Below, piece by piece: positions 8,114 to 31,777 of a stretch of DNA of 56,881 nucleotides. Positions within the stretch are counted from its first letter, which is position 1, and every line of letters starts with the position of its first letter. The DNA comes from Halioglobus sp. (lineage in GTDB: Bacteria > Pseudomonadota > Gammaproteobacteria > Pseudomonadales > Halieaceae). The DNA is taken from the NCBI GenBank assembly GCA_020443425.1, contig JAGRIE010000023.1, positions 1 through 56,881 on the forward strand, in the 5' to 3' direction. A model generated the notes under the pieces. The model worked only from the letters and a program-made list of their open reading frames with translations. It had not been told where the DNA came from and ran no database searches. The translations under genes were made by a program, and so were the position numbers.

Positions 8114-8134
8114 TGGCTGCCCCGCCGCCGGCGA

Positions 8135-14423: not shown

Positions 14424-14662
14424 GCTGGATTCTCGGTTTGCGATATGAAGTAGGCGGCAGAGCAGCCAGTGGGACACTCGTCGGTTGGCGCCACTCCCGG
14501 GCGCACTGTCGCGAATCCGCACTCATTGCCGTGTGCAGGCGAAAACCCCGATTGTACGTGGGCACAGACGGCGTAACAATGTATGCAGGCGCGCGAGTGT
14601 GCGGATTAGCCGGGTCTCAGGGCGGGGACTGGCCGGGCCGGCACCGACTACACATCGCAACA

Positions 14663-14700
14663 GTAATTCGTAAAAAAATAATAAATAAATTACGAATTAC
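14663..14700. promoter_or_regulatory. Perfect 11-bp inverted repeat, candidate operator of the steroid C/D-ring operon
   Basis: gtaattcgtaa (14663-14673) and ttacgaattac (14690-14700) are exact reverse complements, separated by a 16-nt pure A/T spacer. The right arm ends 3 nt before the candidate -35 box of fadD3. Arm spacing puts the arm centres about 27 bp apart, a little over 2.5 helical turns. The region is strikingly AT-rich against GC-rich surroundings. A dimeric or higher-order DNA-binding protein is the natural reader; the two Lrp/AsnC proteins in the operon are candidates. Confidence 0.6.
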
Positions 14701-14702
14701 GG

Positions 14703-14731
14703 TTTTCATCTGGTGCCAGACTGACTATTAT
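14703..14731 (+). promoter_or_regulatory. Candidate sigma-70 promoter of the fadD3-led operon
   Basis: TTTTCA (14703-14708) and TATTAT (14726-14731) are separated by exactly 17 nt, about 42 nt upstream of the fadD3 ATG and directly abutting the inverted repeat at 14663-14700. No other good promoter was seen in the 250-bp gap, the rest of which appears to hold only the 5' region of the divergent channel gene. Confidence 0.45.
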
Positions 14732-14772
14732 GGCGATCCTGTTGGTCTATCGTTGCGAGTACATTCGATATC

Positions 14773-16353
14773 ATGCCAGAGACGCAGTACCACGCCCGTA
14801 CCCTGCCGCAGGTCGTTGCCGAAGCAGCCCTCGCGCACGGCGCGCACGCGGCTATTACCGATGGCGCTGTCCAGCTGACCTACGAGGAGTTGAACGCTGC
14901 GCGTATCCAGGCCGCGCGGGCTTTTGTCGCCGCCGGGCTGGAGAAAGGGGAGCGCGTGGCGATCTGGGCTCCCAATATCTACCAGTGGATCATTGCCGCG
15001 ATTGGCGCGCAGAGTGTCGGCGGCGTGCTGGTGCCACTCAATACCCGTTACAAGGGCTCCGAAGCGGCGTTTATCCTGCGCGCCAGCGGCGCTAAAATGC
15101 TGTTCACCGTGGCGGAGTTTCTCGGCGCGCACTATCCCCGGATGTTGGAGAAACAGGATCTCCCTGCACTGCAGCGCACCGTTACCCTGGCCGGGGAGGC
15201 ACCAAACTGCCAGTCGTGGCAGGCGTTCCTGGCCTCTGGCGAAGCGGTACCTGTCGCGGAGGTGGAGCGCCGCGCTGCAGCGCTGACGCCCGACGACACC
15301 CTCGACATCCTGTTTACCTCCGGCACCACCGGCAACCCCAAGGGGGTGGTCACCTGCCACGGCCAGAATATCCGCACTTTCGAGACCTGGAGTGCCACCG
15401 TCGGCCTGCGCAGTGATGACAACTACCTGATTATCAATCCGTTCTTCCATTCGTTTGGCTACAAGGCGGGCTGGTTGGCTGCCATCATCAGCGGCGCGCA
15501 TATCCTCCCGGTGCTGAATTTTGATCTCGACACCGTGCTGGCGCAGATCGAGCGCGACAGCATCTCCATGATTCCGGGGCCGCCTACCATCTACCAGTCC
15601 CTGCTGGCCCATCCGAGGCGCGAGGAGTACGACCTGTCCAGCCTGCGCCTCGCGGTTACCGGTGCGGCGCCGGTGCCGGTGGAGTTGGTGCGACAGATGC
15701 GCGAGGTGCTGGGTTTTGAGGTGGTTGTCACCGCCTACGGGCTGACCGAGAGTTGCGGCGTGGTATCGATCTGTCGTGCTGACGACAGTGCCGAGCGTAT
15801 TTCCCACACCTCGGGCTGTGCCATGACCGGGACGGAAATCCAGTGTGTCGACAGAGACGGGCAGGTGGTTGGCCCCGGCGTCGACGGTGAAATATGGGTG
15901 CGCGGTTTCAACATCATGCAGCACTATTTCAACAACCCCGAGGCGACGAGGGAGGCGCTGGACAGTGACGGCTGGCTCAAGACCGGCGACGTCGGGGTGA
16001 TGGATGAGGACGGCTATGTGCGTATTACCGGGCGCATCAAGGAGATGTTTATTGTCGGCGGTTTCAATTGCTACCCCGCGGAGATCGAAAACATCCTCTG
16101 CGACATGCCGGGCATCGCCCGGGCTGCTGTGATCGGTGTTCCCGACCAGCGTCTGGGTGAGGTCGCCCGCGCGTTCCTGGTGAGGAACGCCGGGACAGAC
16201 CTTGATGAAGCTGCCGTCATTGACTGGGCGCGCGGCCATATGGCGAATTACAAAGTGCCGCGTTCTGTGGTTTTCCTGCCTGAGTTGCCGATGAATGCCG
16301 GCGGCAAGGTGGATAAGGGGGAACTGGCAAAATGGATGCCGCAGCGCCAGTGA
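14773..16353 (+). CDS. fadD3: FadD3-like HIP-CoA ligase (steroid C/D-ring side-chain activation)
   Basis: A 526-residue AMP-forming acyl-CoA ligase. Motifs: [20 protein letters not shown] (about residues 180-200), AYGLTESCG, KTGDVGVMDEDGYV, RIKEMFIVGGFNCYPAEIE, and the C-terminal catalytic lysine region MNAGGKVDKGEL. By sequence alone it is a generic ligase. The assignment to FadD3 (activates 3aα-H-4α(3'-propanoate)-7aβ-methylhexahydro-1,5-indanedione, HIP) rests on the adjacent ipdABC, echA20, fadA6, ipdF and fadE30 homologues, the same set as in the actinobacterial KstR2 regulon and the Comamonas scd genes. No strong Shine-Dalgarno was seen. Its stop overlaps the next ATG (TGATG). Confidence 0.85.
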   Translation: MPETQYHARTLPQVVAEAALAHGAHAAITDGAVQLTYEELNAARIQAARAFVAAGLEKGERVAIWAPNIYQWIIAAIGAQSVGGVLVPLNTRYKGSEAAFILRASGAKMLFTVAEFLGAHYPRMLEKQDLPALQRTVTLAGEAPNCQSWQAFLASGEAVPVAEVERRAAALTPDDTLDILFTSGTTGNPKGVVTCHGQNIRTFETWSATVGLRSDDNYLIINPFFHSFGYKAGWLAAIISGAHILPVLNFDLDTVLAQIERDSISMIPGPPTIYQSLLAHPRREEYDLSSLRLAVTGAAPVPVELVRQMREVLGFEVVVTAYGLTESCGVVSICRADDSAERISHTSGCAMTGTEIQCVDRDGQVVGPGVDGEIWVRGFNIMQHYFNNPEATREALDSDGWLKTGDVGVMDEDGYVRITGRIKEMFIVGGFNCYPAEIENILCDMPGIARAAVIGVPDQRLGEVARAFLVRNAGTDLDEAAVIDWARGHMANYKVPRSVVFLPELPMNAGGKVDKGELAKWMPQRQ

Positions 16354-16847
16354 TGAACGACCTGTCCTCCCCGCCGCAGACCCAGCAGATCGACCTGGAT
16401 GCCACCGACCAGGCGATAATCGACCTGCTGCGGAAGGATGGGCGCATGCCGTTCCGAGCGATCGCCCGTGCACTGGACGTAGCGGAGAACACGGTGCGGG
16501 CGCGCGTGCGTCGCATGGAAGAATCCGACACCATGCGGGTGGTGGCCGTCACCGATATTGAGGCGGCCGGTTATGGCATGCTGCTGGCGATAGGGGTGCA
16601 GGTCGAGGGCCGGTCCCCGGAAACCGTGGCGCGGGAACTGGCCGCGATTGCCGAGGTGTTCTCGGTGAATGTGGTGGTTGGCGCGCAGGACATCGAAATT
16701 CTTGTGGTGGCGGAGGATCAGGCCGCGCTGAATATCCTGATCACCGACAAGTTGGGGGCTATTCCGGGTGTGCGTCGCCTGACGCCGGCACTGGCGCTGG
16801 ATGTGCTGAAAAACCAGCCCGACTGGGTGCCGTTTCATGCGGCGTAA
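16353..16847 (+). CDS. Lrp/AsnC-family regulator, first of a tandem pair
   Basis: 164 residues from the ATG at 16353 (an in-frame ATG at 16332 lies inside fadD3). An N-terminal winged helix-turn-helix (LDATDQAIIDLLRKDGRMPF, RAIARALDVAENTVRARVRRMEES) is followed by a linking strand and an AsnC_trans_reg/RAM ligand domain (about residues 75-155). Translation is coupled to fadD3 through a TGATG overlap and to the second regulator through an 11-nt overlap. Family members form dimers and octamers and often sense amino acids; the effector here is unknown, and an intermediate of the operon's pathway is plausible inference. Confidence 0.88.
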   Translation: MNDLSSPPQTQQIDLDATDQAIIDLLRKDGRMPFRAIARALDVAENTVRARVRRMEESDTMRVVAVTDIEAAGYGMLLAIGVQVEGRSPETVARELAAIAEVFSVNVVVGAQDIEILVVAEDQAALNILITDKLGAIPGVRRLTPALALDVLKNQPDWVPFHAA

Positions 16848-17301
16848 ACTCGATGGGGCCGATCGCGCGATCGTCGAGAGACTGTCGCGCGATGCCCGCG
16901 TCAGCAATCGTGAAATCGCGGAGCAGCTCGGGGTCACAGAGGGTACCGTGCGCGGCAGAGTCAAGCGCATGGAGGAGGAGAAGCTGATCCGCATCACGGC
17001 GGTGACCAATATCGATCGCTTCAAGGACGCCGCCCTGGCCTATATCTGGATCGAGGTGGAGCGCAGCGGGCAGACGCGGGAGGTCGCGGCAAAGCTCGCC
17101 GAGATTGCCGAGTTGGGTTTTGTCGGTGTGATGCTGGGGCGTGCTGATATTCTGGCGATCACAATGGTGCGTAACGCCGAGCACCTGGCCGAGTTTGTGC
17201 ACCAGCGCATCAGTGTCATCGGGGGTGTGCGCGGTACCCGCAGCACGCTGGGAGTCAATTTTATCAAGCACGATTACCGCATGGCGCGGATCGTCAGTTA
17301 A
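16837..17301 (+). CDS. Lrp/AsnC-family regulator, second of a tandem pair
   Basis: 154 residues, same architecture as its neighbour: winged HTH (LDGADRAIVERLSRDARVSN, REIAEQLGVTEGTVRGRVKRMEEE) and a RAM domain with GVMLGRADILAITMV. The two proteins are clearly related but diverged, especially in the effector domain. The ATG lies 11 nt inside the previous gene, so the products are made together and could form a mixed oligomer. It is followed after about 15 nt by ipdA with a strong GAGGAAGG ribosome-binding site. No decarboxylase role is suggested: both HTH regions look intact, unlike many paired AsnC-like AhbA/NirD proteins. Confidence 0.88.
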   Translation: MRRKLDGADRAIVERLSRDARVSNREIAEQLGVTEGTVRGRVKRMEEEKLIRITAVTNIDRFKDAALAYIWIEVERSGQTREVAAKLAEIAELGFVGVMLGRADILAITMVRNAEHLAEFVHQRISVIGGVRGTRSTLGVNFIKHDYRMARIVS

Positions 17302-17316
17302 AGAGGAAGGGATACG

Positions 17317-18192
17317 ATGAACAAGCAAATGACAGCGGCGCAGGTCGTTGCACAACTGGAAGATGGCATGACCATCGGTATTGGTGGCTGGGGCCCGCGG
17401 CGCAAGCCGATGGCGCTGGTGCGCGAGGTCCTCCGCTCCGACCTGAAAGATCTCACCATCGTGGCCTATGGCGGCGCAGACGTCGGCATGCTGTGTGCGG
17501 CCGGCAAGGTGAAGAAAGTCGTGTTCGCGTTTGTGTCGCTGGATTTTATCCCGCTGGAACCCTATTTCCGCCAGGCGCGCCAGTCCGGTTCCATCGAGGT
17601 GATGGAGATCGACGAGGGCATGATGCTGCTGGGACTGCGGGCGGCGAGTTGGGGCATTCCCTACATCCCCACCGAAGTCGGCCTGGGCACGGATGTGATC
17701 AACAAGAACCCGGATATCAAGGTGATCGACAGCCCCTACGACGATAAGGAGTGGGTGGCCATGCCGGCCCTGAAACTCGATGTCTCGTTGATTCATGTCG
17801 ACAGAGCGGATGAGCGCGGCGTCTGCCAGATTGCGGGACCGGACTTTTACATGGATGACTGGTTCGCACGGGCGGCGGCGAAGACCTTCGTGTCCTGTGA
17901 TGAACTGGTCGACACCTCGTTCTTCCACGACCCCGCACAGGCGCGGCTGGTGCACTGGGAGCGCTCCGTGACGACAGGTGTAGTGCCTATCCCGGGCGGT
18001 GCCCACCCCTCCTCATGTACCCCGCTGTACGGCTTTGATGTGCCGCACTTCAAAGCCTATGCCGCCTCCGCCAAGGAGGAGAGTGGCTTCCAGGGCTATG
18101 TCGACAAGTTCCTCGGTGCCTCGGAAGAGGAGTACCAGAAGAATGTGGGTGGCCTGGATGCCATCCGCGCTATTGCACTGCCCACTTACTGA
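17317..18192 (+). CDS. ipdA: IpdA: alpha subunit of the ring-C-opening COCHEA-CoA hydrolase
   Basis: A class I CoA-transferase fold, 291 residues. The opening TAAQVVAQLEDGMTIGIGGWG then RRKPMALVREVLRSDLKDLT, and KVKKVVFAFVSLDFIPLEP, match the pattern of actinobacterial IpdA (Rv3551) as I know it. IpdAB is known to hydrolyse ring C of COCHEA-CoA rather than transfer CoA. Other landmarks are IDEGMMLLGLRAA and the C-terminal PGGAHPSSCTPLYG. It is followed after 20 nt by ipdB with its own good Shine-Dalgarno. A conventional CoA transferase is the fallback reading, but the neighbours make IpdA much more likely. Confidence 0.9.
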   Translation: MNKQMTAAQVVAQLEDGMTIGIGGWGPRRKPMALVREVLRSDLKDLTIVAYGGADVGMLCAAGKVKKVVFAFVSLDFIPLEPYFRQARQSGSIEVMEIDEGMMLLGLRAASWGIPYIPTEVGLGTDVINKNPDIKVIDSPYDDKEWVAMPALKLDVSLIHVDRADERGVCQIAGPDFYMDDWFARAAAKTFVSCDELVDTSFFHDPAQARLVHWERSVTTGVVPIPGGAHPSSCTPLYGFDVPHFKAYAASAKEESGFQGYVDKFLGASEEEYQKNVGGLDAIRAIALPTY

Positions 18193-18212
18193 TTGGCCCA
18201 GGAGAATACATC

Positions 18213-19013
18213 ATGACTGCAGCAACTGATTACACCCTGGCTGAACTGTGCATTGTCGCCGCCAGCCAGGCATTCGCGAACGAGGGCGAGGTGCTCGCCA
18301 CCGGTATCGGCGTGGTGCCGCGTCTGGCGGCCAGCCTTGCGATGAAGACCAGCAACCCCGATCTGATGATGACGGATTCCGAGGCGTGGATGCTGAGCGA
18401 ACCGAACCCGCTGGGGGCGCGCCCCGCCGATTTCGTCCCGGCCACTGAGAGCTGGATGGGCTTCTCACGCATTTTTGACAATGTCTGGAGCGGCAGGCGT
18501 CACGCGATGCTCGGGCCGACCCAGATCGACCGCTTCGGCCAGTCCAACACCTCGGCGCTGGGCGGCACCTATGAGAAACCCAAGACCATGATGCTGGGCG
18601 CGCGCGGCTTCCCGGGCAACTCCATTTCCCACCCCAACAGTTTTTTCGTGCCGGCCCACAATACGCGGGTATTCATGGACGGCGAGTGCGATTTCGTATC
18701 CTCCATCGGCTACAACCCTGCGCGCCTGCCAAAGGGCCACTCGCTCGACGATGTCGATATCAGGCTGGTCATCACCAACCTGTGCGTGATGGATTTCGGC
18801 GGGCCGGACCACCAGGTCCGCCTGGTGTCGCTGCACCCCGGTGTGACAGTGGAAGAAGTGCAGGAGAACACCGCTTATCCGATACACGTTCCGGACGATG
18901 TCCCGGTGACCACTGCACCCACGACCGAGCAACTGGCCGTGATCGCCGCACTGGATCCTCACAACCAGCGGGCTTACCAGATCAAGGATAACCCGCCGGG
19001 CAACCGCGCCTGA
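18213..19013 (+). CDS. ipdB: IpdB: beta subunit of the ring-C-opening COCHEA-CoA hydrolase
   Basis: 266 residues, partner of IpdA. It has the CoA-transferase beta-subunit fold with GEVLATGIGVVPRLAASLA, TDSEAWMLSEPN, a central LGPTQIDRFGQSNTSALGG and GARGFPGNSISHPNSFFVPA. IpdB lacks the usual CoA-transferase catalytic glutamate context; I cannot confirm the residue change without an alignment. AGGAGAA lies just upstream of the ATG. The stop is 15 nt before ipdC. Confidence 0.9.
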   Translation: MTAATDYTLAELCIVAASQAFANEGEVLATGIGVVPRLAASLAMKTSNPDLMMTDSEAWMLSEPNPLGARPADFVPATESWMGFSRIFDNVWSGRRHAMLGPTQIDRFGQSNTSALGGTYEKPKTMMLGARGFPGNSISHPNSFFVPAHNTRVFMDGECDFVSSIGYNPARLPKGHSLDDVDIRLVITNLCVMDFGGPDHQVRLVSLHPGVTVEEVQENTAYPIHVPDDVPVTTAPTTEQLAVIAALDPHNQRAYQIKDNPPGNRA

Positions 19014-19028
19014 AACGAGGCTTGAAGC

Positions 19029-20108
19029 ATGCTTGAAACGCGATTAACCAAACTGCTCGGCTGCCGCTATCCGATTGTGCAGACGGCCATGGGCTGGGTC
19101 GCCGACCCGAGACTGGTGGCGGGCAGCTGCAACGCCGGTGCGTTTGGCTTCCTCGCCGGTGCGACCATCCCTGCGCATGAGATGGAGCGCGACATCCTGC
19201 GGGTCAAGGAACTCACCGACAAGCCGTTCGGTGTGAACTTCCACATGTACCAGCCCAATGCCGCGCAGATCGTCGACCTGGTGATTCGTCACGGCGTGCG
19301 CGCCGTCAGCTACTCGCGCTCCCCCGGCCCCGAGTTCATCAAAAAGCTGAAGGATGCGGGCGTAGTGTGTATGCCCACTGTGGGCCTGCCCAAGCACGCG
19401 ATCAAGGCGGTGGAACTTGGCGCCGATGCAGTGACAGTGCAGGGTGGTGAGGGCGGTGGGCACACCGGTGCCGTGCCCACGACCCTGTTGATACCGCAGG
19501 TGGTGGATGCGGTGGGCGACCGGGTGCCGGTGGTTGCCGCCGGCGGCTTCAAGGACGGACGCGGCCTGTTGGCAGCGCTGTCCTGGGGCGCAGACGGTAT
19601 TGCAATGGGCACGCGCTTCCTGATGACCGAGGAGAGCCCGGTGCCGCGCGCCACGCTGCAGCGCTACCTCGACTGTAAAAGCCCCGGCAATATTATCGTG
19701 TCCAAAGCGATGGACGGCCTGCCCCAGCGCATGATCATGAACGAATTGCTCACTGAACTGGAGAAAGCCAGCACGTTGCGCAAACTGCTGATTGCAATGC
19801 GCAACGGCCTCGCGTTCCGCAAGCACACAGGTGCCACAGTGTTCAGCCTGTTGAAGTCGGCCATCGCGATGAGCAAGGACGATGATATGACAGCGGCGCA
19901 GGCCATCATGTCGGCCAATGCGCCGATGATCATACAGAAGGCGATGGTAGACGGCGATCCCGCACACGGGGTACTGCCGTCAGGGCAAGTGGCCGGCGTT
20001 ATCGACAGCTTGCTGTCCTGTGAAGACCTGATTCAATCCATTGTCGCCGAAGCCGAACAGCGTCTCACCCTGTTGTCGCTGCGCGTGACGGAAAATAGCC
20101 AGGAGTAA
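19029..20108 (+). CDS. ipdC: IpdC-like flavin oxidoreductase (nitronate monooxygenase family)
   Basis: A 359-residue FMN-binding TIM-barrel protein of the nitronate-monooxygenase/2-nitropropane-dioxygenase family. It shows LGCRYPIVQTAMGWVA at the N terminus, VTVQGGEGGGHTG (phosphate-binding region), VVAAGGFKDGRGL and WGADGIAMGTRFL. In steroid degraders IpdC (Rv3553) is reported to act on a HIC-CoA-type intermediate before ring opening. The family label alone would be ambiguous; position between ipdB and echA20 supports IpdC/ScdK. Confidence 0.87.
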   Translation: MLETRLTKLLGCRYPIVQTAMGWVADPRLVAGSCNAGAFGFLAGATIPAHEMERDILRVKELTDKPFGVNFHMYQPNAAQIVDLVIRHGVRAVSYSRSPGPEFIKKLKDAGVVCMPTVGLPKHAIKAVELGADAVTVQGGEGGGHTGAVPTTLLIPQVVDAVGDRVPVVAAGGFKDGRGLLAALSWGADGIAMGTRFLMTEESPVPRATLQRYLDCKSPGNIIVSKAMDGLPQRMIMNELLTELEKASTLRKLLIAMRNGLAFRKHTGATVFSLLKSAIAMSKDDDMTAAQAIMSANAPMIIQKAMVDGDPAHGVLPSGQVAGVIDSLLSCEDLIQSIVAEAEQRLTLLSLRVTENSQE

Positions 20109-20111
20109 TCT

Positions 20112-20864
20112 ATGTCCAGACCTTTCAGCACCACGATTGAAAACGGTATCGCCGAGATGATCCTCGATCATCCGCCGGTCAATGCCTTCGACAGCGCCGG
20201 CTGGTTCGCGATCGCTGCCGAGATCGACGCCCTGGGAGTCAGCGATGACGTGCGGGTGATCATCATCGGTGCCGCGGGCAAGGGCTTCTGTGCCGGCGTC
20301 GATATCAAGGAACTGGCCGCCGAGCCGGGCAGGATCGTCGATGTGAACAAGGGTAACTACGAAACCTTCCGCGCGATTCACCGCAACCCCAAGCCGGTAA
20401 TTGTGGCGCTGCACAGCTTTGTGCTCGGCGGCGGCATCGGTATGGCGGGCGCTGCGGATATCATCCTGTGCTCCGACTGTGCCCGCTTCGGTGTGCCTGA
20501 GATCGATCGCGGCGCCATGGGCGGCGGCGCCCACTTGCAGCGCATGTTCCCGGTGCAGAAGGTGCGCTACATGTACTTCACCGGCGAGTTTATCGACGCA
20601 CAGGAGGCCTATCGGCTGGGCGCGGTAGAGCGGGTTGTGCCGCTGTCGGAGCTGTTGCCGACCGCGCGTGACATTGCCGCCAGGATTGCCGCCAAATCGC
20701 CGGCCATGGTGAAACTTGCCAAGGAGGCACTGACCGGCATTGAGGATGGCAATCTGGAGGACAAGTATCGCTGGGAGCAGGGTTTCACCCTGGAAGCCTA
20801 CACAGTGGGTGACTCACAGGAATCGCGCGACGCTTTTGTCGAAAAACGCGACGCCAAATTTTAG
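20112..20864 (+). CDS. echA20: EchA20-like ring-D hydrolase (crotonase family)
   Basis: A 250-residue crotonase-fold enzyme. Oxyanion-hole segments are GFCAGVDIKEL and FVLGGGIGMAGAADI; one catalytic glutamate position is kept in RFGVPEIDRGAMGGGAH, while the second usual hydratase glutamate is a methionine (VRYMYFTG). This pattern, plus the C-terminal YRWEQGFTLEAY and SRDAFVEK, matches Rv3550/EchA20, which opens ring D of HIEC-CoA by retro-Claisen-type hydrolysis rather than hydrating a double bond. It starts 3 nt after ipdC with an AGGAG signal. Confidence 0.87.
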   Translation: MSRPFSTTIENGIAEMILDHPPVNAFDSAGWFAIAAEIDALGVSDDVRVIIIGAAGKGFCAGVDIKELAAEPGRIVDVNKGNYETFRAIHRNPKPVIVALHSFVLGGGIGMAGAADIILCSDCARFGVPEIDRGAMGGGAHLQRMFPVQKVRYMYFTGEFIDAQEAYRLGAVERVVPLSELLPTARDIAARIAAKSPAMVKLAKEALTGIEDGNLEDKYRWEQGFTLEAYTVGDSQESRDAFVEKRDAKF

Positions 20865-20876
20865 GGACGACAGACA

Positions 20877-22040
20877 ATGGATCTCGCTTATACCGAACAG
20901 CAACAGGCATTCCGTGAGGAGGTGCGCAGCTGGCTGGCTGAAAATGTACCCGCCGAGCCGCTGCAGACCTTCGACACCGCTGAGGGCTTCCGGCAGCACC
21001 GGGAGTGGGAGGCGACACTCAACAGTGGGCGCTGGGGCATGGTGACCTGGCCGCAGGCACTGGGTGGTCGCGGCTGCGACCTGATCGAGTGGCTGATTTT
21101 CGAGGAGGAGTACTACCGTGCCCGGGCCCCGCTGCGCGTCAACCAGAACGGCATCTTCCTGCTCGGGCCGACACTGATGGAGTACGGCACCGAGGAGCAG
21201 AAGGCACGCATCCTGCCGAAAATGGCGAATGGAGAGGAGGTCTGGGCGCAGGGCTGGTCAGAGCCCAACGCCGGGTCTGACATGGCGGCGATTCGCTCCA
21301 CCGCGAAACGCGAGGGTGACAAGTACATTATCAACGGCCAGAAGACCTGGTCGACGCGCGCGGTGTGGGCCGACTGGTGTTTCGGTATGTTCCGAACCGA
21401 TCCCGAATCCGAACGCCATCGCGGCCTGACCTTCATCCTGGTGCCGCTGGACAGCCCCGGCATCACGGTGCGTCCCATCCCGCAGCTCGACGGCCTACCG
21501 GGCTTCGCGGAAATATTTTTTGACAATGTCGAGGTGTCGGTCGACAACCGCCTCGGTGACGAGGGTGCCGGCTGGAGCGTGGCGATGGCCACGGCCGGCT
21601 TCGAGCGCGGCCTGATGCTGCGCTCACCGGCGCGCTTCCAGGAGACGGCGCGGCGCCTGGTCGAACTGTATACAGCCAACAGGGAGTCCGCCGATTGCGA
21701 CCCGGCGGTAAAGGACGCAGTGCTGCGCGCTTATCTGGATGCCGAGAGTTACTGCCTGACCACCTACCAGACGGCCTGTCGACTGAACAAGGGCGGCAAA
21801 ATCGGTGCCGAGTCCTCCACCAACAAGATTTTCTGGTCGGAACTGGACCAGAGCATGCACGCCACTGCGATGAGTATCCTGGGTGCGCGCGCTGAACTGC
21901 TGCCGCATGCACCGGCGGCGCAGGGTGTGGGTACCTGGCTGGACGGCTGGCTGTTCTCGCAGTCGGGTCCTATTTACGCCGGAACCAACGAAGTGCAGCG
22001 CAATATCATCGCCGAACGAATGCTGGGAATGCCGAGGTAG
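20877..22040 (+). CDS. Acyl-CoA dehydrogenase, large subunit of a predicted heteromeric pair
   Basis: A 387-residue FAD-dependent acyl-CoA dehydrogenase. FAD/substrate motifs WSEPNAGSDMAAI and QKTWSTRA are present, as is the C-terminal IYAGTNEVQRNIIAERMLGMPR-type ending. The classical MCAD-type glutamate (YEGT) is alanine here (YAGT); GFERGL may hold the base, as in IVD-like enzymes. It is paired with the shorter dehydrogenase that starts 3 nt downstream. In Mycobacterium, FadE31/32/33 form such heteromers for later steps of C/D-ring degradation; that specific role is inference. Confidence 0.88.
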   Translation: MDLAYTEQQQAFREEVRSWLAENVPAEPLQTFDTAEGFRQHREWEATLNSGRWGMVTWPQALGGRGCDLIEWLIFEEEYYRARAPLRVNQNGIFLLGPTLMEYGTEEQKARILPKMANGEEVWAQGWSEPNAGSDMAAIRSTAKREGDKYIINGQKTWSTRAVWADWCFGMFRTDPESERHRGLTFILVPLDSPGITVRPIPQLDGLPGFAEIFFDNVEVSVDNRLGDEGAGWSVAMATAGFERGLMLRSPARFQETARRLVELYTANRESADCDPAVKDAVLRAYLDAESYCLTTYQTACRLNKGGKIGAESSTNKIFWSELDQSMHATAMSILGARAELLPHAPAAQGVGTWLDGWLFSQSGPIYAGTNEVQRNIIAERMLGMPR

Positions 22041-22043
22041 CAG

Positions 22044-23090
22044 ATGGATTTTACGTTTACAGAAGACCAGTTATTGTTCCAGGAGTCGGTGCGTGATTTC
22101 CTGGTGAACGAAGTAACCCCGGAACGGATTCGCGCGGGTTGGGAAACCGACAGCGGCCGCGACCCCGCGTTGTGGCAGCAACTGGCCGAATTGGGCCTGA
22201 CCGGCATTACGGTACCCGAAGCCCACGGCGGGCTGGGCATGACGGCGCTGGATTTCGTGTTGCTGGCACAGGAGTGCGGCTATGTCGCGCTGCCCGAGCC
22301 GTTGGTGCACACCGCGCTGGTGGCGGTGCCTATGCTGACAGAGCTGGGGGGTGAACTGGCCGCGCACTGGCTGCCGCAGATCGCCGCCGGCGAGGCCACA
22401 GTGGTGGTCGGGCTGGAGCGCAATCTTGTGGTCGAGGATGCCCATATCGCGGACCTTCTGTTGTTGCAGAGAGGCGATGAGCTGGTTGCCGCGACTGCTG
22501 AACAGGTCGTGTTACAGCACAGTGAGTCCATCGACCCCTCGCGCAAGCTGTATACCGTTGAGGTGGCAGCCGCTGCCCCCACAGTCGCCTCCGGGTCGCA
22601 GTCGGCAGCCCTGCTCAGCGCAGCGCAGGACCGCGGTGCACTCGGTTGTGCAGCGCAGGCGCTGGGCCTGGCACAGCGAATGATCGACCTCACCGTACAG
22701 TACACCAGCGAGCGACAGCAGTTCGGCAAGCCGATCGGCAGTTTCCAGGCGGTGAAACACCACATGGCGAATATCGCGGTGCGACTGGAGTATGCGAAGG
22801 CACCGACCCATCGCGCCGCCTACGCGCTGGCGGTCGGCCAGGAGAGAGCGGCGCAGGCCGTCTCCCACGCCAAGCTGGTCGCCTGTGAGGCAGCGAACCT
22901 GGCGGCGAAAAACTGCCACCAGGCACACGGTGCGATGGGTTACACCTGGGAAGTGGACCTGCACATTTTCATGAAGAAAGCCTGGGCCCTGGCCAACACC
23001 TGGGGCGATGCGGGCTTTCACAAATCTCGGGTCGCAGAGTCTATCTTTGCTCCCGGCGCGGCACTGGGTGCCGGCGCAACTTTCGCTTAA
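22044..23090 (+). CDS. Acyl-CoA dehydrogenase-like small subunit of the first pair
   Basis: 348 residues, the shorter type of acyl-CoA dehydrogenase. It has the N-terminal helical domain (MDFTFTEDQLLFQESVRDFL), a reduced middle beta-domain (only about 90 residues with little FAD signature), and a C-terminal domain with SERQQFGKPIGSFQAVKHH and HGAMGYTWEVDLHIF. It lacks the GTNEVQRN-type terminal motif of full-length homologues. Short subunits like this normally work only with a long partner, here the gene 3 nt upstream. Confidence 0.86.
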   Translation: MDFTFTEDQLLFQESVRDFLVNEVTPERIRAGWETDSGRDPALWQQLAELGLTGITVPEAHGGLGMTALDFVLLAQECGYVALPEPLVHTALVAVPMLTELGGELAAHWLPQIAAGEATVVVGLERNLVVEDAHIADLLLLQRGDELVAATAEQVVLQHSESIDPSRKLYTVEVAAAAPTVASGSQSAALLSAAQDRGALGCAAQALGLAQRMIDLTVQYTSERQQFGKPIGSFQAVKHHMANIAVRLEYAKAPTHRAAYALAVGQERAAQAVSHAKLVACEAANLAAKNCHQAHGAMGYTWEVDLHIFMKKAWALANTWGDAGFHKSRVAESIFAPGAALGAGATFA

Positions 23091-23107
23091 AGACAGAGGA
23101 CAGGAAC

Positions 23108-24256
23108 ATGGCAGACGCTTATATCGTAGATGCAGTACGCTCACCCACCGGCCGCCGCAAAGGGGGCTTGTCGGATGTGCACGGCGCCGACCTCGGTGCC
23201 CATGTGCTGAAGACGCTGGTGGAACGCAACAGTATTCCCGATCACGAGTACGACGATGTGATGTTCGGCTGTGTGGATACCATCGGGCCGCTGGCCGGTG
23301 ATATCGCGCGCACCTGCTGGTTGGCAGCGGGCCTGTCCGATGCCGTGCCGGGGACGACAATTGATCGCCAGTGCGGCTCCTCGCAACAGGCTGTGCACTT
23401 TGCCGCACAGGCCGTTATGTCGGGCGTTAATGATGTCGTGATCGCGGGCGGTGTACAAACCATGACCCAGATCCCCATTTCCTCAGCAATGATTGCCGCC
23501 CAGCCGATGGGTTTCAGCGATCCGTTTTCCGGCAGCCAGGGCTGGGTGGCACGCTACGGCAGCACGCCCCCCTCGCAGTTCACCTCCGCGCAGATGATTG
23601 CCGATAAATGGAAGCTGTCCCGGGAGCAGATGGAAGAGTTCGCGCTGCGCTCCCATACGCTGGCGCTGGAGGCGATCAGGGCGGGCCGCTTTGATCGGGA
23701 GATCGCGCCGCTCAACGGCGTGGCGATGGACGAGACGCCGCGCAATACCTCGATGGAGAAAATGGCGGAACTGGAGCCATTGATGGAAGGCGGTACTATC
23801 ACCGCGGCCGTCTCCAGCCAGACCTGTGACGCTTCATCCGCCGTGCTGATTGTCTCCGAGGCAGCGCTGAAGCGCTACAACCTGACGCCGCGCGCCCGCA
23901 TCGCACACATGAGTGTGCGCGCTGCCGACCCGATATGGATGCTGACCGCACCCATCCCCGCCACCGAGTATGCGATGAAAAAGTCAGGTATGAAGCTGTC
24001 GGACATCGATCTGGTGGAGATCAATGAAGCCTTTGCGTCGGTGCCGATGGCGTGGCTGCTGGAAACCGGCTATCCGCTGGAGCAGACGAATGTGAATGGC
24101 GGCGCGATTGCGCTGGGCCATCCGCTGGGTGCCTCTGGTACGAAGCTGATGACCACGCTGCTGCACGAACTGGAGCGCAGCGGTGGCAAATACGGTTTGC
24201 AGACCATGTGTGAAGGCGGCGGCCAGGCGAACGTGACCATCCTGGAGCGTGTTTAG
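23108..24256 (+). CDS. fadA6: FadA6-like thiolase
   Basis: A 382-residue thiolase. The nucleophilic cysteine lies in DRQCGSSQQAVHFAAQA, the histidine in NEAFASVPMAW, and the second cysteine in GLQTMCEGGGQANVTI. Details such as QIPISSAMIAA, ISREQM-like KLSREQMEEFALRSH and TAPIPATEYAMKKSG match Rv3556c/FadA6, the thiolase of the KstR2 regulon that cleaves the ring-opened diketo-acyl-CoA to acetyl-CoA and MOODA-CoA. GAGG and AGGA precede the ATG. Confidence 0.88.
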   Translation: MADAYIVDAVRSPTGRRKGGLSDVHGADLGAHVLKTLVERNSIPDHEYDDVMFGCVDTIGPLAGDIARTCWLAAGLSDAVPGTTIDRQCGSSQQAVHFAAQAVMSGVNDVVIAGGVQTMTQIPISSAMIAAQPMGFSDPFSGSQGWVARYGSTPPSQFTSAQMIADKWKLSREQMEEFALRSHTLALEAIRAGRFDREIAPLNGVAMDETPRNTSMEKMAELEPLMEGGTITAAVSSQTCDASSAVLIVSEAALKRYNLTPRARIAHMSVRAADPIWMLTAPIPATEYAMKKSGMKLSDIDLVEINEAFASVPMAWLLETGYPLEQTNVNGGAIALGHPLGASGTKLMTTLLHELERSGGKYGLQTMCEGGGQANVTILERV

Positions 24257-24320
24257 GCGCGTCACTCCCGATCAATGCCGATACACAGCATTCAAGAGCA
24301 TTCAATAGAGGAACTTGAAC

Positions 24321-25208
24321 ATGAGTGGAATACTAGCGGGCAGGGTAGCTATCATCACCGGAGCCGGTGGCGGTCTGGGCGCCGCCCACGCCAGGGTTTT
24401 TGCAGCCGAGGGCTGTGCCGTCGTTGTCAATGATATCAATACGGATGCGGCGCAGGCCGTGGTGGATGAGATCAGCAGCGCCGGCGGGAAAGCGGTGGTC
24501 AACAGCTCTGATATCACCAATTACGACGACAGCCTGAACGCGGTCAAGCAGGCCATTGACAGCTTTGGCGATCTGCACATTGTGCTCAACAATGCCGGGG
24601 TGAACCGCGATCGCATGTTTGCCTCAATGACAGAGCAGGAGTGGGACACGATAATGGCGGTGCACCTTAAAGGCCATTTCTGTATCAGTTCGCATGCGGT
24701 GCACTACTGGCGGGGGCGCTCCAAGGAAGGCCAGGCGGTGGATGCCCGGATTATCAACACCACCTCAGGAGCGGGCCTGCAGGGGTCAATCGGGCAGTCA
24801 AACTACGCCGCTGCGAAAGCGGGTATTGCTGCGCTGACATTGAACCAGGCTGCCGAACTGGCGCGCTACAACATCACTGCCAACGCGGTTGCGCCCTCTG
24901 CCCGCACCGGCATGACCAGTGCTGTGCCCGAGATGGCCGCGCGCATGGCGAAGCCTGAGGACGGCAGTTTCGATCACTTCGCGCCGGAGAATGTCTCCAA
25001 CCTGCTGGCCTGGCTGGGCAGTGCTGAGGCGGCACAGGTGACGGGCAAGATCTTTGAAGCCGAGGGCGGCCGTATCTGTATCTGCGACGGCTGGCGCACC
25101 ACAGAGGGTGTCGATCGCGGCGCGGCCTGGGCGCCGGCCGAAATCGGCGAGGCGATGAAAGAACTGCTGGCCAAGGAAGTCCCTGCCCAGAAAGTCTGGG
25201 GCACCTGA
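24321..25208 (+). CDS. Short-chain dehydrogenase with C-terminal extension
   Basis: 295 residues, an SDR of the type found in peroxisomal multifunctional-enzyme-like hydroxyacyl-CoA dehydrogenases (similar in layout to Rv3548c). NAD-binding GAGGGLGAAHA, NNAGVNRD, and the catalytic Ser-Tyr-Lys in NTTSGAGLQ and SNYAAAKAG. About 45 residues beyond the core include CDGWRTTEGVDRG. The ATG at 24321 has AGAGGAA upstream; the TTG at 24315 is not needed. It likely oxidises a beta-hydroxyacyl-CoA in side-chain or ring-derived beta-oxidation; the exact substrate is unknown. Confidence 0.85.
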   Translation: MSGILAGRVAIITGAGGGLGAAHARVFAAEGCAVVVNDINTDAAQAVVDEISSAGGKAVVNSSDITNYDDSLNAVKQAIDSFGDLHIVLNNAGVNRDRMFASMTEQEWDTIMAVHLKGHFCISSHAVHYWRGRSKEGQAVDARIINTTSGAGLQGSIGQSNYAAAKAGIAALTLNQAAELARYNITANAVAPSARTGMTSAVPEMAARMAKPEDGSFDHFAPENVSNLLAWLGSAEAAQVTGKIFEAEGGRICICDGWRTTEGVDRGAAWAPAEIGEAMKELLAKEVPAQKVWGT

Positions 25209-25232
25209 GTTCGGGTCACGATCGGAGGCGCT

Positions 25233-26390
25233 ATGGAATTTGCATTTACAGAAGAGCAGGAAATGATCCGTGACACGGCGGCGGCATTTCTGTCTGAAAT
25301 CTCCGACAGCGCCGCGGTGCGTCGCGCGATGGCCACGGAGCAGGGGTATGAGGCCGCCGTCTGGCAGCGTATCTGTGGCGAAATGTACTGGCAGGCAATT
25401 CACGTGCCCGAGGCACACGGTGGACTGGGGCTGGGTTATGTCGAACTGGTCGCAATGATGGAGCAGATGGGGCGACAGCTGTTGTGCGCGCCGTTTTTCT
25501 CGACGGTCTGCCTGGGAGTCAACGCGCTGCGTGTCGCCGGCAGTGAGGCACAGCAGGCGCTGTGGTTGGGGCAGATTTGTGCGGGCGAACTGACGGCCAC
25601 GCTGGCCTTCAACGGCGGCTCAAGTCACTGGGGAGCGCAGGCCATCACCGCTACCTGGCGTCGCGAGGGCGATCAGTTTGTACTCGACGGTGAGTACCGC
25701 TATGTCATCGATGGGCACACGTCGGGTTTACTGGTTGTGGCCGCGCGGGCCGAGGGTTCCACCGGCGAGGACGGGATCGGGCTGTTCCTGGTGCCCGCGA
25801 CCACGGCAGGTGTGGAATGCAACTGGCTGCCGACAATGGACCAGGCCCGCAAGCAGGCCGGTGTGCGTATGAACAGTGTCACGGTGGGTGCCGATGCAGT
25901 GATGGGAGAACCCGGGCAGTGCTGGGAAGCGCTCGCTAAAGTGATCGACCTGGCCACTATCGCGCTGGCCGCAGAACAGGTCGGCGGTTGTCAACAGTTA
26001 CTGGATATGACCGTGGCCTATACCGGTGAGCGTGTGCAGTTCAACCGCACCATTGCCAGTTACCAGGCGGTAAAACACAAGGCCGCCGATATGATGCTGA
26101 AGACTGAGGTCGCGCGCTCCGCGATATACTACGCCGCCTGTGTCGCCCAGGAGGCGCTGGAGGATGGCCCGCTGGCAGGTGAATTGCGGGAGGCGGCGAG
26201 CGTCGCCAAATCCTATTGTTCGGACGCGTTTTTTGCCATCGCCGGGGATTCGCTGCAGTTGTTCGGCGGGGTCGGTTTTACCTGGGAATACGATGTCCAC
26301 CTGTATTTCAAGCGGGCCAAGTCCTCCGAGCATCTGCTGGGGAACGGCGCTTTCCACCGCGAGCGCCTGGCCCGCGCCTTACTGGATTGA
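25233..26390 (+). CDS. Acyl-CoA dehydrogenase-like subunit of the second pair (ScdC1-like)
   Basis: A 385-residue dehydrogenase-like protein. N-terminal helical domain (MEFAFTEEQEMIRDTAAAF), HVPEAHGGLGLGYVELVAMM, a mid-domain with little FAD-binding signature, and C-terminal GERVQFNRTIASYQAVKHK and FGGVGFTWEYDVHLYFKR. Like the gene at 22044 it lacks the terminal GT-x-Q-QRN motif, so it looks like the non-canonical partner of the FadE30-like protein starting 10 nt downstream. The pair resembles Comamonas ScdC1C2, which dehydrogenates the HIP-CoA side chain. GGAGG sits 5 nt before the ATG. Confidence 0.85.
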   Translation: MEFAFTEEQEMIRDTAAAFLSEISDSAAVRRAMATEQGYEAAVWQRICGEMYWQAIHVPEAHGGLGLGYVELVAMMEQMGRQLLCAPFFSTVCLGVNALRVAGSEAQQALWLGQICAGELTATLAFNGGSSHWGAQAITATWRREGDQFVLDGEYRYVIDGHTSGLLVVAARAEGSTGEDGIGLFLVPATTAGVECNWLPTMDQARKQAGVRMNSVTVGADAVMGEPGQCWEALAKVIDLATIALAAEQVGGCQQLLDMTVAYTGERVQFNRTIASYQAVKHKAADMMLKTEVARSAIYYAACVAQEALEDGPLAGELREAASVAKSYCSDAFFAIAGDSLQLFGGVGFTWEYDVHLYFKRAKSSEHLLGNGAFHRERLARALLD

Positions 26391-26400
26391 GGGGAATACT

Positions 26401-27603
26401 GTGAAGTTGAGTTTTAGTCCCGAGGACGAGCTGTTCCGCGAGGAAGTGGCGACCTGGTTGCAGGACAACCTGACCGGCGAATTCGAGAAACTGAAGTACC
26501 GGGGCGGTCCCGGTGACGAACACATGTTCCCGGACGAGCGCAAGGTCTGGGAGCAGAAGTTGGCTGAAGGTGGCTGGACATGCGTCGGCTGGCCACGGGA
26601 GTACGGTGGTCGCGGTTGCAGCATAGAGCAGCAGGTGATTTTCTTTGAAGAGTACGCGCGCGCCGGTGCACCGGGTCGCGTGGGCCATATCGGCGAGGGG
26701 CTGGCCGGCCCGACCATCATCGCTTTCGGGACTGCGGAGCAGAAGAAAAAGTACCTGCCCGGTATCGTGGCGGGGACCGAGTTGTGGTGCCAGGGTTATT
26801 CCGAGCCCGGAGCCGGTTCCGATCTGGCCAATGTAAAGACAAAAGCGCGCTTTGACGAGTCGCGGGGCAAGTGGCTGATCAATGGGCAGAAAGTGTGGAC
26901 CTCGCTGGCCCACGAATCGGATTTCTGTTTCGTCATAGCACGCACCGACCCGGAGTCAGTGGCGCACAAGGGGCTGGGCTTTTTCCTGATCGGTATGGAC
27001 CAGCCGGGTATCGAGGTCAGGCCCATCGAGCAGATCACCGGCACCTCCGAGTTCAACGAGGTGTTTTTTGACGAGGCTTACTGCGATGCCGACGATATCG
27101 TGGGAGCGCCCGGCGACGGCTGGAAAGTCGCCATGGGCTTGCTGGGGTTTGAGCGGGGAGTCTCGACACTGGGCCAGCAGATGCAGTTCCAGAACGAACT
27201 TGACGAGGTGGTGCGCCAGGCGCGCAGCAACGGCGCCGCCGGGGACCCGGTGATTCGCCAGCGCATCGCCCGCGCACATGCTGAACTCAAGATTATGCGC
27301 TACAACTCGATGCGGATGTTATCGGGCCAGAGTGCCAGCGACGGTGCCCTGCAGAAGGAGGCGCTGATCTACAAATTGTTCTGGGCGACGTGGCACCGAA
27401 GTCTCGGTGAACTGGCCATGGATGTACTGGGCCCGGAATGTGAAATTCTTGAAGGTGCTCCCTATGCGCTGAGTCGCCTGCAGTCCATGTATTTGTTTGT
27501 CCGCTCTGACACAATCTATGGCGGAACCAACCAGATACAGCGCAATATCATTGCCGAACGGGGGCTGGGTATGCCCCGGGAACCCAAAGGTACAGCGAAA
27601 TAA
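26401..27603 (+). CDS. fadE30: FadE30/ScdC2-like acyl-CoA dehydrogenase
   Basis: A 400-residue dehydrogenase; the start is the GTG at 26401 behind GAGGGG, since the longer open frame overlaps the upstream gene. Motifs are CQGYSEPGAGSDLANV, INGQKVWTSLAHES, ITGTSEFNEVFFD, GAPGDGWKVAMG, GFERGVSTLGQQ and the ending DTIYGGTNQIQRNIIAERG. This combination, especially SLAH and FERGVSTLGQQ, matches Rv3560c/FadE30, which introduces the first double bond in the HIP-derived propionyl-CoA side chain. It is part of a predicted heteromer with the preceding gene. Confidence 0.88.
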   Translation: MKLSFSPEDELFREEVATWLQDNLTGEFEKLKYRGGPGDEHMFPDERKVWEQKLAEGGWTCVGWPREYGGRGCSIEQQVIFFEEYARAGAPGRVGHIGEGLAGPTIIAFGTAEQKKKYLPGIVAGTELWCQGYSEPGAGSDLANVKTKARFDESRGKWLINGQKVWTSLAHESDFCFVIARTDPESVAHKGLGFFLIGMDQPGIEVRPIEQITGTSEFNEVFFDEAYCDADDIVGAPGDGWKVAMGLLGFERGVSTLGQQMQFQNELDEVVRQARSNGAAGDPVIRQRIARAHAELKIMRYNSMRMLSGQSASDGALQKEALIYKLFWATWHRSLGELAMDVLGPECEILEGAPYALSRLQSMYLFVRSDTIYGGTNQIQRNIIAERGLGMPREPKGTAK

Positions 27604-27627
27604 CAGCCAGAGCTTGAGGAACATGCG

Positions 27628-28419
27628 ATGAATTTGAAAACGCCTGAGTACGTACCGGGTCACGGCCTGATCAAGGGCAAGTCAGTACTGGTGACGGCAG
27701 CAGCCGGTGCCGGTATCGGTTTCTCCGCCGCGCTGAAAGCGGCGGAGGAGGGTGCGCGCGCCATCGTGTTGAGCGATATACACGAGGGGCGGCTGGCCGC
27801 GGCGGTGGACAAGCTGAAGGCCGAATCGGGTCTGGCCGACGTGTATGGCAAAGTCGGGAACGTCGCCGTTGAGGAGGATGTTCGCGCCCTGGTTGATTTT
27901 GCCGAAGCGTCCATGGGCGGCGTCGACATCCTGATCAACAACGCCGGCCTGGGCACATCGAAGCTGCTGATCGACATGGAGGATGATGAGTGGCATCGCG
28001 TCATCGATGTGACACTCAATGGTACTATGCGCATGACACGCTATATGATGAAGGTCATGAAAGCGCGCGGTCAGGGCGGCGTTATCGTCAACAATTCCTC
28101 GGTACTGGGCTGGCGGGCGCAGAAAGAGCAGGCGCATTACGCCGCGGCGAAAGCGGGCGTGATGGCACTGACACGCTGCGCCGCACTGGAGGCTGCGGAG
28201 TTTGATGTGCGCATCAATGCGGTGGCGCCCTCCATTGTCCTGCACCCGATGCTACGCAAATCGGCATCCGAGGAGCTGTTGGCGGAACTGGAGTCCAGGG
28301 AGGCCTATGGGCGCGCGGCGGAAGCCTGGGAAGTGGCCAATGTGATGATGTTCCTGGCCTCTGACTATTCCAGCTATATGACCGGGGAGATCGTTTCGGT
28401 GTCCAGCCAGCGCGGCTGA
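27628..28419 (+). CDS. ipdF: IpdF-like short-chain dehydrogenase
   Basis: A 263-residue SDR. The start region EYVPGHGLIKGKSVLVTAAA, then GAGIGFSAALKAAEEG, NNAGLGTSKLLIDMEDDEWHRV, the catalytic NNSSVLGWRAQKEQAHYAAAKAG with Tyr-x3-Lys, and RINAVAPSIVLH closely follow Rv3559c/IpdF. IpdF interconverts keto and hydroxyl forms at C-5 of HIP-CoA-type intermediates. GAGGAAC precedes the ATG. The gene lies directly after the FadE30-like gene, consistent with acting on consecutive intermediates. Confidence 0.88.
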   Translation: MNLKTPEYVPGHGLIKGKSVLVTAAAGAGIGFSAALKAAEEGARAIVLSDIHEGRLAAAVDKLKAESGLADVYGKVGNVAVEEDVRALVDFAEASMGGVDILINNAGLGTSKLLIDMEDDEWHRVIDVTLNGTMRMTRYMMKVMKARGQGGVIVNNSSVLGWRAQKEQAHYAAAKAGVMALTRCAALEAAEFDVRINAVAPSIVLHPMLRKSASEELLAELESREAYGRAAEAWEVANVMMFLASDYSSYMTGEIVSVSSQRG

Positions 28420-28471
28420 CAGGGATAGAGAACACTGGCCTAGTACACAATCAAACAACTGGAGAAACAAC

Positions 28472-29674
28472 GTGAGAGAAGCAGTAATCGTATCCACAGC
28501 AAGAACCGGCCTGGCCAAGTCATTTCGCGGCGGCTTCAATGACACTGAGGCACCGGCCATGGGCGGCCATGTGGTTCGGGCGGCCATCGCACGGGCGGGT
28601 ATCGACCCGGCGGAAGTGGATGACTGCATCTTTGGCGCGGCGGCCCAGCAGGGCACCCAGGGCTATAATATCGGGCGCCTGTGCGGCATTGCCGGTGGGC
28701 TGCCGGACACTGTGGCGGGTATGGCCATCGAGCGCCAGTGCTCCTCCGGGCTGATGTCAATTGCCACAGCAGCCAAGAGCATCATGTGCAACGAGTACGA
28801 TATCGCTGTGGCCGGTGGCGTGGAATCCATCTCCCTGGTCCAGACCAAGCACAAGAATGCCTATCGCAATATCTCCAAGGCCGTCACCGCCGTCGATCCC
28901 ACTGCCTATATGCCGATGCTGGAGACGGCCGAGGTGGTCTCCGACCGCTATAACATCAGCCGGGAAGCGCAGGATATCTATTCCCTGCAGAGCCAGCAGC
29001 GCACGGCGGCAGCCCAGCAAGCGGGTCTGTTTGACGACGAGATCGTGCCGATGAACACTACCATGGCGGTGTTCAACAAGGAGACCAAAGAGACTACCTA
29101 TCAGGACGCCGTGGTGGATCGAGATGACTGTAACCGTCCCTCTACCACGCTGGAGAGCCTGACAGCGCTGGAGCCGGTGTTCAAGGACGGGCAGTGGGTG
29201 AAACAGGGGCGCTTCATTACGGCGGGCAACTCCTCGCAGCTGTCCGATGGCGCCTCAGCCTGCGTGGTCATGGACAGCCGTCTCGCGGCACAGAAGGGCC
29301 TGGCGCCGCTGGGGATCTATCGCGGTCTTGCGGTTGCCGGGTGCAAATCTGACGAAATGGGTATCGGTCCTGTGTTTGCCGTGCCCAAACTGCTGAAGCG
29401 CCACGGCCTGGGTGTGGGCGATATCGACCTGTGGGAGTTGAACGAAGCGTTTGCCTGCCAGGTCGTTTACTGTCGCGACCAGTTGGGTATCGACAACGAC
29501 AAACTGAATGTCAACGGCGGCTCCATCTCCATCGGCCACCCGTTTGGTATGAGTGGCGCCAGGATGGTTGGCCATGCGCTGTTGGAGGGTAAACGTCGCG
29601 GTGCCAGGTATGTAGTGATTACGATGTGCATCGGCGGCGGCATGGGTGCCGCCGGACTGTTTGAGGTCGCCTGA
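28472..29674 (+). CDS. Acetyl-CoA acyltransferase (thiolase), last gene of the steroid operon
   Basis: A 400-residue thiolase with a GTG start behind GGAGAAA. Catalytic cysteine in ERQCSSGLMSIATAA, histidine in NEAFACQV and GHPFGMSGARM, and second cysteine in VITMCIGGGMGAAG. It is a generic FadA/AtoB-like thiolase, distinct from the FadA6-like one upstream. It could cleave the beta-ketoacyl-CoA of the propionyl side chain (a ScdF-like role) or a later 2-methyl-3-oxoadipyl-CoA step; sequence alone does not decide. Only 6 nt separate its stop from the first glycosyltransferase of the next region. Confidence 0.88.
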   Translation: MREAVIVSTARTGLAKSFRGGFNDTEAPAMGGHVVRAAIARAGIDPAEVDDCIFGAAAQQGTQGYNIGRLCGIAGGLPDTVAGMAIERQCSSGLMSIATAAKSIMCNEYDIAVAGGVESISLVQTKHKNAYRNISKAVTAVDPTAYMPMLETAEVVSDRYNISREAQDIYSLQSQQRTAAAQQAGLFDDEIVPMNTTMAVFNKETKETTYQDAVVDRDDCNRPSTTLESLTALEPVFKDGQWVKQGRFITAGNSSQLSDGASACVVMDSRLAAQKGLAPLGIYRGLAVAGCKSDEMGIGPVFAVPKLLKRHGLGVGDIDLWELNEAFACQVVYCRDQLGIDNDKLNVNGGSISIGHPFGMSGARMVGHALLEGKRRGARYVVITMCIGGGMGAAGLFEVA

Positions 29675-31748: not shown

Positions 31749-31777
31749 TGTACCTGTAGTATTGGGGTGCTTTGTGA

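Follow-up and report, generated by a model that had tools for sequence, protein, structure and literature searches.

A conserved pair of Lrp/AsnC genes and a putative operator as candidate regulatory elements of the HIP operon in Halioglobus and related proteobacteria

Introduction

In actinobacteria, the genes for the degradation of HIP, the last steroid rings, are reported to be controlled by KstR2, a repressor of the TetR family with HIP-CoA as effector (PMC5380842; PMC3068626). KstR2 is a dedicated regulator of the fadD3-ipdAB genes, is encoded within their cluster and recognizes a palindromic operator. The regulation of bile-acid catabolism in degrading proteobacteria has been called largely unknown (PMC8399759). 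Isolates of the Halieaceae and Spongiibacteraceae are described as steroid degraders (PMC5790920).

Regulators of the Lrp/AsnC family, such as Lrp and AsnC of E. coli, PH1519, PH0140 and LrpA, share a fold and consist of a helix-turn-helix (HTH) and a RAM domain, which define their Pfam families. The known members sense mainly amino acids. Two unlike Lrp-like units are paired or fused in NirDL and AhbA/B. Closer to steroids, two contiguous Lrp/AsnC genes (NCHOL11_RS15865/15860) have been noted in the bile-salt cluster of Sphingobium sp. Chol11, with a suggested role in amino acid metabolism (PMC12882949, 2026). AsnC genes are named in legends for other pathways (PMC6498646), and the words "AsnC" and "ipdA" both occur in PMC6429209. 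No description of paired Lrp/AsnC control of HIP or steroid-ring genes was found in the literature searched, subscription papers being mostly outside its scope.

The window analysed here is a stretch of 56,881 nucleotides from Halioglobus sp. (contig JAGRIE010000023.1), in which two overlapping Lrp/AsnC genes lie inside a 15-gene HIP operon. Their products resemble the known Lrp/AsnC proteins in domains, Pfam families and fold, but they differ in being a pair of paralogues kept in one catabolic operon, with natural fusions and a dedicated operator. Unlike NirDL and AhbA/B, the pair lacks the HxYxR motif, has conserved HTH residues and is associated with an operator and steroid genes. With the Chol11 genes it shares the tandem arrangement beside steroid catabolism genes, whereas no operator, fusion or link to HIP is mentioned in the accessible part of that paper (PMC12882949); this comparison is one of descriptions. 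A preliminary description had called the arrangement an undescribed type of control. This holds for the HIP pathway in the literature searched, although tandem Lrp/AsnC genes as such were already noted in Chol11 (PMC12882949).

Results

The operon begins with fadD3 (14773..16353), which encodes the HIP-CoA ligase and scored 721 bits against the NCBIfam FadD3 family NF005801 (cut-off 657). It is followed, also on the forward strand, by regulator 1 (16353..16847, 164 aa), regulator 2 (16837..17301, 154 aa), ipdA (17317-18192) and ipdB (18213-19013). The last two match the Pfam family CoA_trans and together encode a ring-opening enzyme of the CoA-transferase fold; their names are presumed, from the preliminary description and general knowledge of the HIP pathway. 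The remainder (19029..29674, forward strand) consists of ORFs with short gaps: ipdC, an enoyl-CoA hydratase that by reading we take to be echA20, four acyl-CoA dehydrogenases, two thiolases and two SDRs. Of these, ipdC, the hydratase and the first SDR were scanned with profiles, and the others were named by reading. All 15 genes, fadD3 through the second thiolase (14773-29674), share one strand, and no gap between them exceeds 58 nt; the value for the gap before the fourth acyl-CoA dehydrogenase was obtained with a start that is less likely than the one at 26401. The sequence and the ORFs confirmed the junctions given in the preliminary description. The TGA stop codon of fadD3 (16351-16353) overlaps the ATG of regulator 1 at 16353 in a TGATG, and the overlap between regulators 1 and 2 is 11 nt, from the ATG at 16837 to 16847. 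The end of regulator 2 is separated from the start of ipdA by 15 nt.

Both regulators contain an AsnC-type HTH (PF13404, 53.2 and 52.3 bits, cut-off 27) and a RAM domain (AsnC_trans_reg, PF01037, 44.4 and 41.5 bits, cut-off 25). Regulator 2 also matches PF22482 above the cut-off, and a TetR domain is absent from the Pfam matches of either protein. Identity between the two amounts to 25 of 51 positions across the HTH part and 26 of 90 across the RAM part, in line with the earlier reading of two intact proteins diverging in their RAM half. In an alignment of 45 proteins of each kind, the recognition core E-x-T-V-R-x-R is common to both, which fits an operator with symmetric arms. The recognition residues E35, G36, T37, R39, R41 and R44 of regulator 2 are present in 45/45 sequences; at the places of E35, T37, R39 and R41, regulator 1 has the same residue in 41, 40, 43 and 45 of 45. 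Of the 13 positions fixed differently between the two regulators, 11 belong to the RAM half (residue 66 onwards), a distribution compatible with a mixed interface or pocket formed by the RAM domains. In a tree that included the fusions described below, split in two, and 14 generic Lrp rows, regulators 1 and 2 (45 rows each) each formed one group, with support of 92/86 and 96/90. The pairing is thus old. The distant pairs of the genomes G510, G280, G053 and G686 fall inside these groups, and 13 of the 14 generic rows fall outside both, the remaining one joining beside regulator 2.

A close match to regulator 1 (E 7.2e-50 or better) was found in 20 of 37 related genomes, that of the window included. 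These are 17 of the 18 genomes of the genus, together with G019, G022 and G031, and in all 20 a second Lrp match follows closely. The genus genome without the pair, G010, is 74% complete. The order fadD3-regulator 1-regulator 2-ipdA-ipdB-ipdC-echA20 and onwards was the same, within the limits of each contig, in the 19 stretches fetched, from 16 other genomes of the genus and G019, G022 and G031; the arrangement is therefore not due to chance.

It had been proposed earlier that paired lrp genes be sought beside ipdAB in other Proteobacteria. Among the best 80 of at least 561 relatives matched by IpdA alignment, the pair was present at 40 loci, and a single gene without its partner at none. By title, many of the 40 belong to Halieaceae and Spongiibacteraceae; since these families make up most of the pair loci, the loci are not independent. 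Steroid degraders such as Pseudomonas (L164, L177, L180) and Comamonas (L178) have neither the pair nor the site described below within about 10 kb of ipdA. In even samples that included the genome of the window, IpdA (E 1e-60) was found in 8 of 398 genomes of the phylum and 5 of 369 of the class. Regulator 1 was found in 6 of the 398 at E 1e-14 and in 3 at E 1e-30; these three (the genome of the window, G510 and G686) are all among the 8 with IpdA.

At 5 of the 40 pair loci (L119, L127, L128, L130, L165), regulators 1 and 2 form one continuous ORF with a linker; L128 is from Halioglobus pacificus KCTC 23430. At the other loci, the junction is an overlap of 4-14 nt (30 loci) or a gap of 3-147 nt (5 loci). 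The fusions occupy three places in the tree among unfused relatives and are the best evidence that the two regulators work as one complex. Proteins of this feast/famine family (FFRPs) are said to be capable of hetero-oligomerizing (PMC4236453). The mixed oligomer put forward in the preliminary description is in keeping with two genes that are always paired and sometimes fused, from which we infer that their products are binding partners. Two separate homodimers, competing or cooperating on one operator, would need no mixed complex. Many Lrp proteins are homo-octamers, and with their shared core E-x-T-V-R-x-R both regulators could read the same arms. This arrangement is nevertheless quite improbable, given the one-chain fusions at three places among unfused relatives and the fact that neither gene ever stands alone at the 40 loci (among the best 80 of at least 561). 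A second, divergent fused pair was seen in G019 (L081), outside the count of 40; no operator of at least 12/14 was found on its 19.5-kb stretch.

The fold of a natural fusion, predicted from 6 fusion sequences only, L081 among them, comprises two full Lrp units (pLDDT 72.7, pTM 0.63). Its best full-length match is NirDL (4czc, 4ch7), with a TM of 0.54-0.55 of the query and an r.m.s.d. of 6.1-6.4 at the model pLDDT of 72.7; the separate halves then match PH0140, PH1519 and others. This predicted likeness raises the question whether the pair could be an enzyme or have a dual function, in the manner of the sirohaem decarboxylases NirDL and AhbA/B, the latter being heterodimeric Lrp-like enzymes reported to have once been taken for regulators (PMC4145669). 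Against such a role, the HxYxR motif of AhbA/B is found in 0/45 sequences of regulator 1 and 0/45 of regulator 2, the HTH recognition residues are retained (the six of regulator 2 without exception), and the operator occurs at 13/14 in no pairless locus among the best 80 of at least 561. An enzymatic function is very improbable.

The operator was first seen by reading the sequence upstream of fadD3. It is an inverted repeat, ATTCGTA-N18-TACGAAT, with an AT-rich spacer (14666..14697, no strand assigned) and the consensus ATKCGTA-N18-TACGMAT. The preliminary description had singled out 14640-14780 as the control region, and this region does hold the conserved site. The regions upstream of fadD3 were compared for the window and 37 of the pair loci, L110, L112 and L173 being dropped as their contigs end upstream. 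All 38 contain the operator at 12/14 or better, with a spacer of 18 in 37 and of 19 in L129; the score is 14 in 20 regions, 13 in 17 and 12 in one. Among 3800 dinucleotide shuffles, one reached 13/14 and 20 reached at least 12, versus 37/38 real regions at 13/14. The two arms carry the same third base in 31 of 37 sites (T/T 23, G/G 8, mixed 6; Fisher 4e-4, kinship ignored).

Pair and site occur together. At 13/14, the best 80 of at least 561 IpdA loci comprise 36 with pair and site, 4 with the pair without the site, 40 with neither and none with the site alone. Three of the four are on contigs that end upstream of fadD3, and the fourth, L116, scores 12/14. Nine of the 40 pairless loci have less than 4 kb before ipdA and are too short to show absence; with these set aside, the site is found in 0/31 pairless loci. 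The association gave Fisher values of 2.5e-18 (0/40) and 4.1e-16 (0/31) within these best 80 loci, kinship being ignored. When the same 1.34 Mb were shuffled once by mononucleotides, one site at 13/14 or better appeared.

Within its own genome, the site at 14666-14697 is the only exact match (spacer 17-19). The exact operator was found in 9 of the 18 genus genomes, in one place each (control 0); in G014, where it is on another contig (C26), it is by reading also at the start of fadD3. When one mismatch is allowed, the operator precedes fadD3 in 14 of the 18. Of the others, G008 (L116) and G011 (L070) have it at 12/14, the contig of G006 ends short, and G010 lacks the pair. Matches with up to one mismatch elsewhere numbered 8 places in the 18 genomes, versus 7 for a reversed-pattern control, and are accordingly attributed to chance, although those in G003 and G004 resemble each other.

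Downstream of the operator lie a putative -35 element, TTTTCA (14703..14708, forward strand), which is supported by column conservation and starts 5 bp past the operator, and a putative -10 element, TATTAT (14726..14731, forward strand), after a 17-bp spacer. In the aligned regions, the conserved columns past the operator are TTGT, then TAnnAT 17 bp on. In a simple scan, the best sigma-70-like pair begins 2-6 bp past the operator in 29/38 regions, 21 of them at 5 bp; the remaining 9 have their highest-scoring pair upstream of the operator end. An operator 2-6 bp upstream of the -35 element makes activation the likelier mode, as does its predicted position at about -72 to -41, which suggests an activator site. 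A repressor acting like KstR2 would sit on the operator and keep the fadD3 promoter shut until freed by an intermediate such as HIP-CoA. This mode has the actinobacterial system as its model (described in PMC5380842 and PMC3068626), and a regulator within its own operon also fits negative autoregulation. In the 29 regions, however, such an operator leaves the -35 and -10 elements and the start uncovered, and we regard repression as possible but unlikely. The half-site centres are 25 bp apart. The usual site of the Lrp family is 15-17 bp, so that a single canonical dimer cannot account for the geometry, which needs additional dimers or a wrapped complex.

Outside the genus, all seven IpdA genomes with the pair (G019, G022, G031, G510, G686, G053, G280) have the site at a steroid gene. 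Among the six IpdA genomes without the pair, five (G455, G689, G260, G197, G428) lack any spacer-18 match at a tolerance of one mismatch, and G709 contains one that is G+C-rich. G455 has a G+C-rich 13/14 match with a spacer of 17 among its HIP genes (L097, 7650). In G510, the pair is about 7 kb before ipdA, and the site lies between regulator 1 and a gene of the FadD3 type, which scores 620 bits against a cut-off of 657. In G031, a second site lies between regulator 2 and ipdA. G053 has one site before FadD3 (over the cut-off) and another before kshA-fadE-fadE-regulator 1-regulator 2, the kshA product scoring 193.8 bits for KshA_C (cut-off 23.3), with Rieske also over its cut-off. An exact site in G280 precedes an HsaC-like gene (below the cut-off) followed by ipdA-ipdB; the pair is on a separate contig, beside a FadD3-type gene. 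A 13/14 match with a spacer of 17 in G280 (L259, 8475), which precedes the operon of a FadD3-type gene, was left out of the counts. G686, from another class, has four sites within C2:132-185 kb and the pair at 191 kb. One site lies between HsaA (NF045629, E 1.4e-104, below the cut-off) and an SDR-ipdAB operon, and is the only one of the four that adjoins genes nameable as steroid genes. The other three, and sites on G053 C33, G280 C109, G022 C11 and G510 C39, have neighbours without a recognizable steroid link, and further matches lie inside genes (G053 C1, G280 C27 and C115). Matches were also seen on G280 C141 and C205.

It had been thought that the Lrp pair replaces the expected KstR2, no TetR gene being apparent. 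No TetR gene was noticed among the ORFs read in the window, and each of the genome's 28 TetR_N matches is on another contig. One of these proteins (G000:C178:96293-96901) has KstR2 as its closest match in the PDB (2ibd, 3.4e-44; 4w1u and 4w97, about 3e-39; next 9.5e-22). The absence of a TetR gene thus holds for the window ORFs and not for the genome, and replacement of KstR2 as originally worded was dropped when this gene was found. Its neighbours are P450, luciferase-like, MFS, thiolase and ligase genes, and no CoA_trans match of the IpdAB type was found in the 10 genes scanned around it. None of the 28 proteins received a KstR2 label (NCBIfam, E 1e-15), a negative that counts only if that collection includes a KstR2 model. 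Near IpdA, a TetR HMM match was found at 2 of the 80 loci (best 80 of at least 561).

The preliminary description had held that a KstR2-like gene elsewhere, with footprints at this promoter, would speak against the Lrp pair. The gene exists, whereas the KstR2 motif AnCAAGnnCTTGnT, taken from PMC3068626, has no exact match in the genome. The gene is also present in only 3 of the 18 genus genomes, versus at least 14 with the operator before fadD3, and an operator of 32 bp with an 18-bp spacer, upstream of the -35 element and probably for an activator, is unlike the 14-bp palindrome of KstR2. That another regulator such as the TetR on C178 controls the promoter, the Lrp pair doing something else, is extremely unlikely, even with a KstR2-like gene in the genome.

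Discussion

Regulators 1 and 2 are probably unlike subunits of one steroid-dedicated Lrp/AsnC factor, a mixed complex that would act at the fadD3 operator and activate the HIP operon. This reading draws on sequence comparisons. The two proteins would be co-translated with FadD3 and join in a mixed dimer or a larger oligomer. This complex may bind ATKCGTA-N18-TACGMAT, the 32-bp operator that lies just before the -35 element of fadD3. The 15-gene operon would then be activated, with positive autoregulation. As the operator is essentially a single site in the genus, the factor should control its own HIP operon. KstR2 is a TetR protein, and this factor would belong to another family and consist of two unlike subunits.

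The signal is probably an intermediate of the pathway, and the identity of the ligand is a guess. NirDL and AhbA/B hold large ligands between unlike subunits, and by analogy a CoA ester is thinkable. More tentatively, a heteromeric, at times single-chain, Lrp/AsnC activator might be the proteobacterial counterpart of KstR2, its two RAM domains forming a joint cavity for a steroid-derived acyl-CoA or acid as signal. Its operator, present in genomes of two taxonomic classes, might then mark a "steroid box" regulon, narrowed to the HIP operon in Halieaceae and elsewhere also taking in ring-A/B genes such as kshA, hsaA and hsaC.

The pair and the operator supply a named candidate regulator together with a predicted binding site and regulon, all of them open to testing in cultured strains. 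If the proposal is true, the pair would clearly exemplify an obligate mixed Lrp/AsnC factor, possibly one that senses a ligand other than an amino acid.

A second operator-like site in the related genome G031, matching 13 of the 14 arm positions, lies between regulator 2 and ipdA (positions 6783–6814 of stretch L080), which suggests an inner promoter in this lineage. The related genome G019 carries a second, divergent fused double-Lrp gene (7655–8617 of stretch L081, contig C4), in which the recognition helices are altered; no operator at 12/14 was found within the 19.5-kb stretch of L081.

The KstR2-like TetR gene of the window's own genome (10294–10905 of L198; G000:C178:86000–105999) is adjoined by a second TetR gene and an AraC gene. 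The surrounding cluster comprises a cytochrome P450, alcohol and aldehyde dehydrogenases, an acyl ligase, a thiolase, a luciferase-like oxidoreductase and a transporter.

Stretch L182 (CAMAXE010000024.1) is titled as a Klebsiella pneumoniae MAG. This title looks wrong, as the L182 regulators cluster with those of environmental gammaproteobacteria.

The HIP operon is followed on its 3′ side by a series of genes reading like glycosyltransferases, sulfotransferases and methyltransferases (window 29681–46134). This region has a lower G+C content, 0.54–0.58 versus 0.60–0.66 before it, and is perhaps a surface-polysaccharide island.
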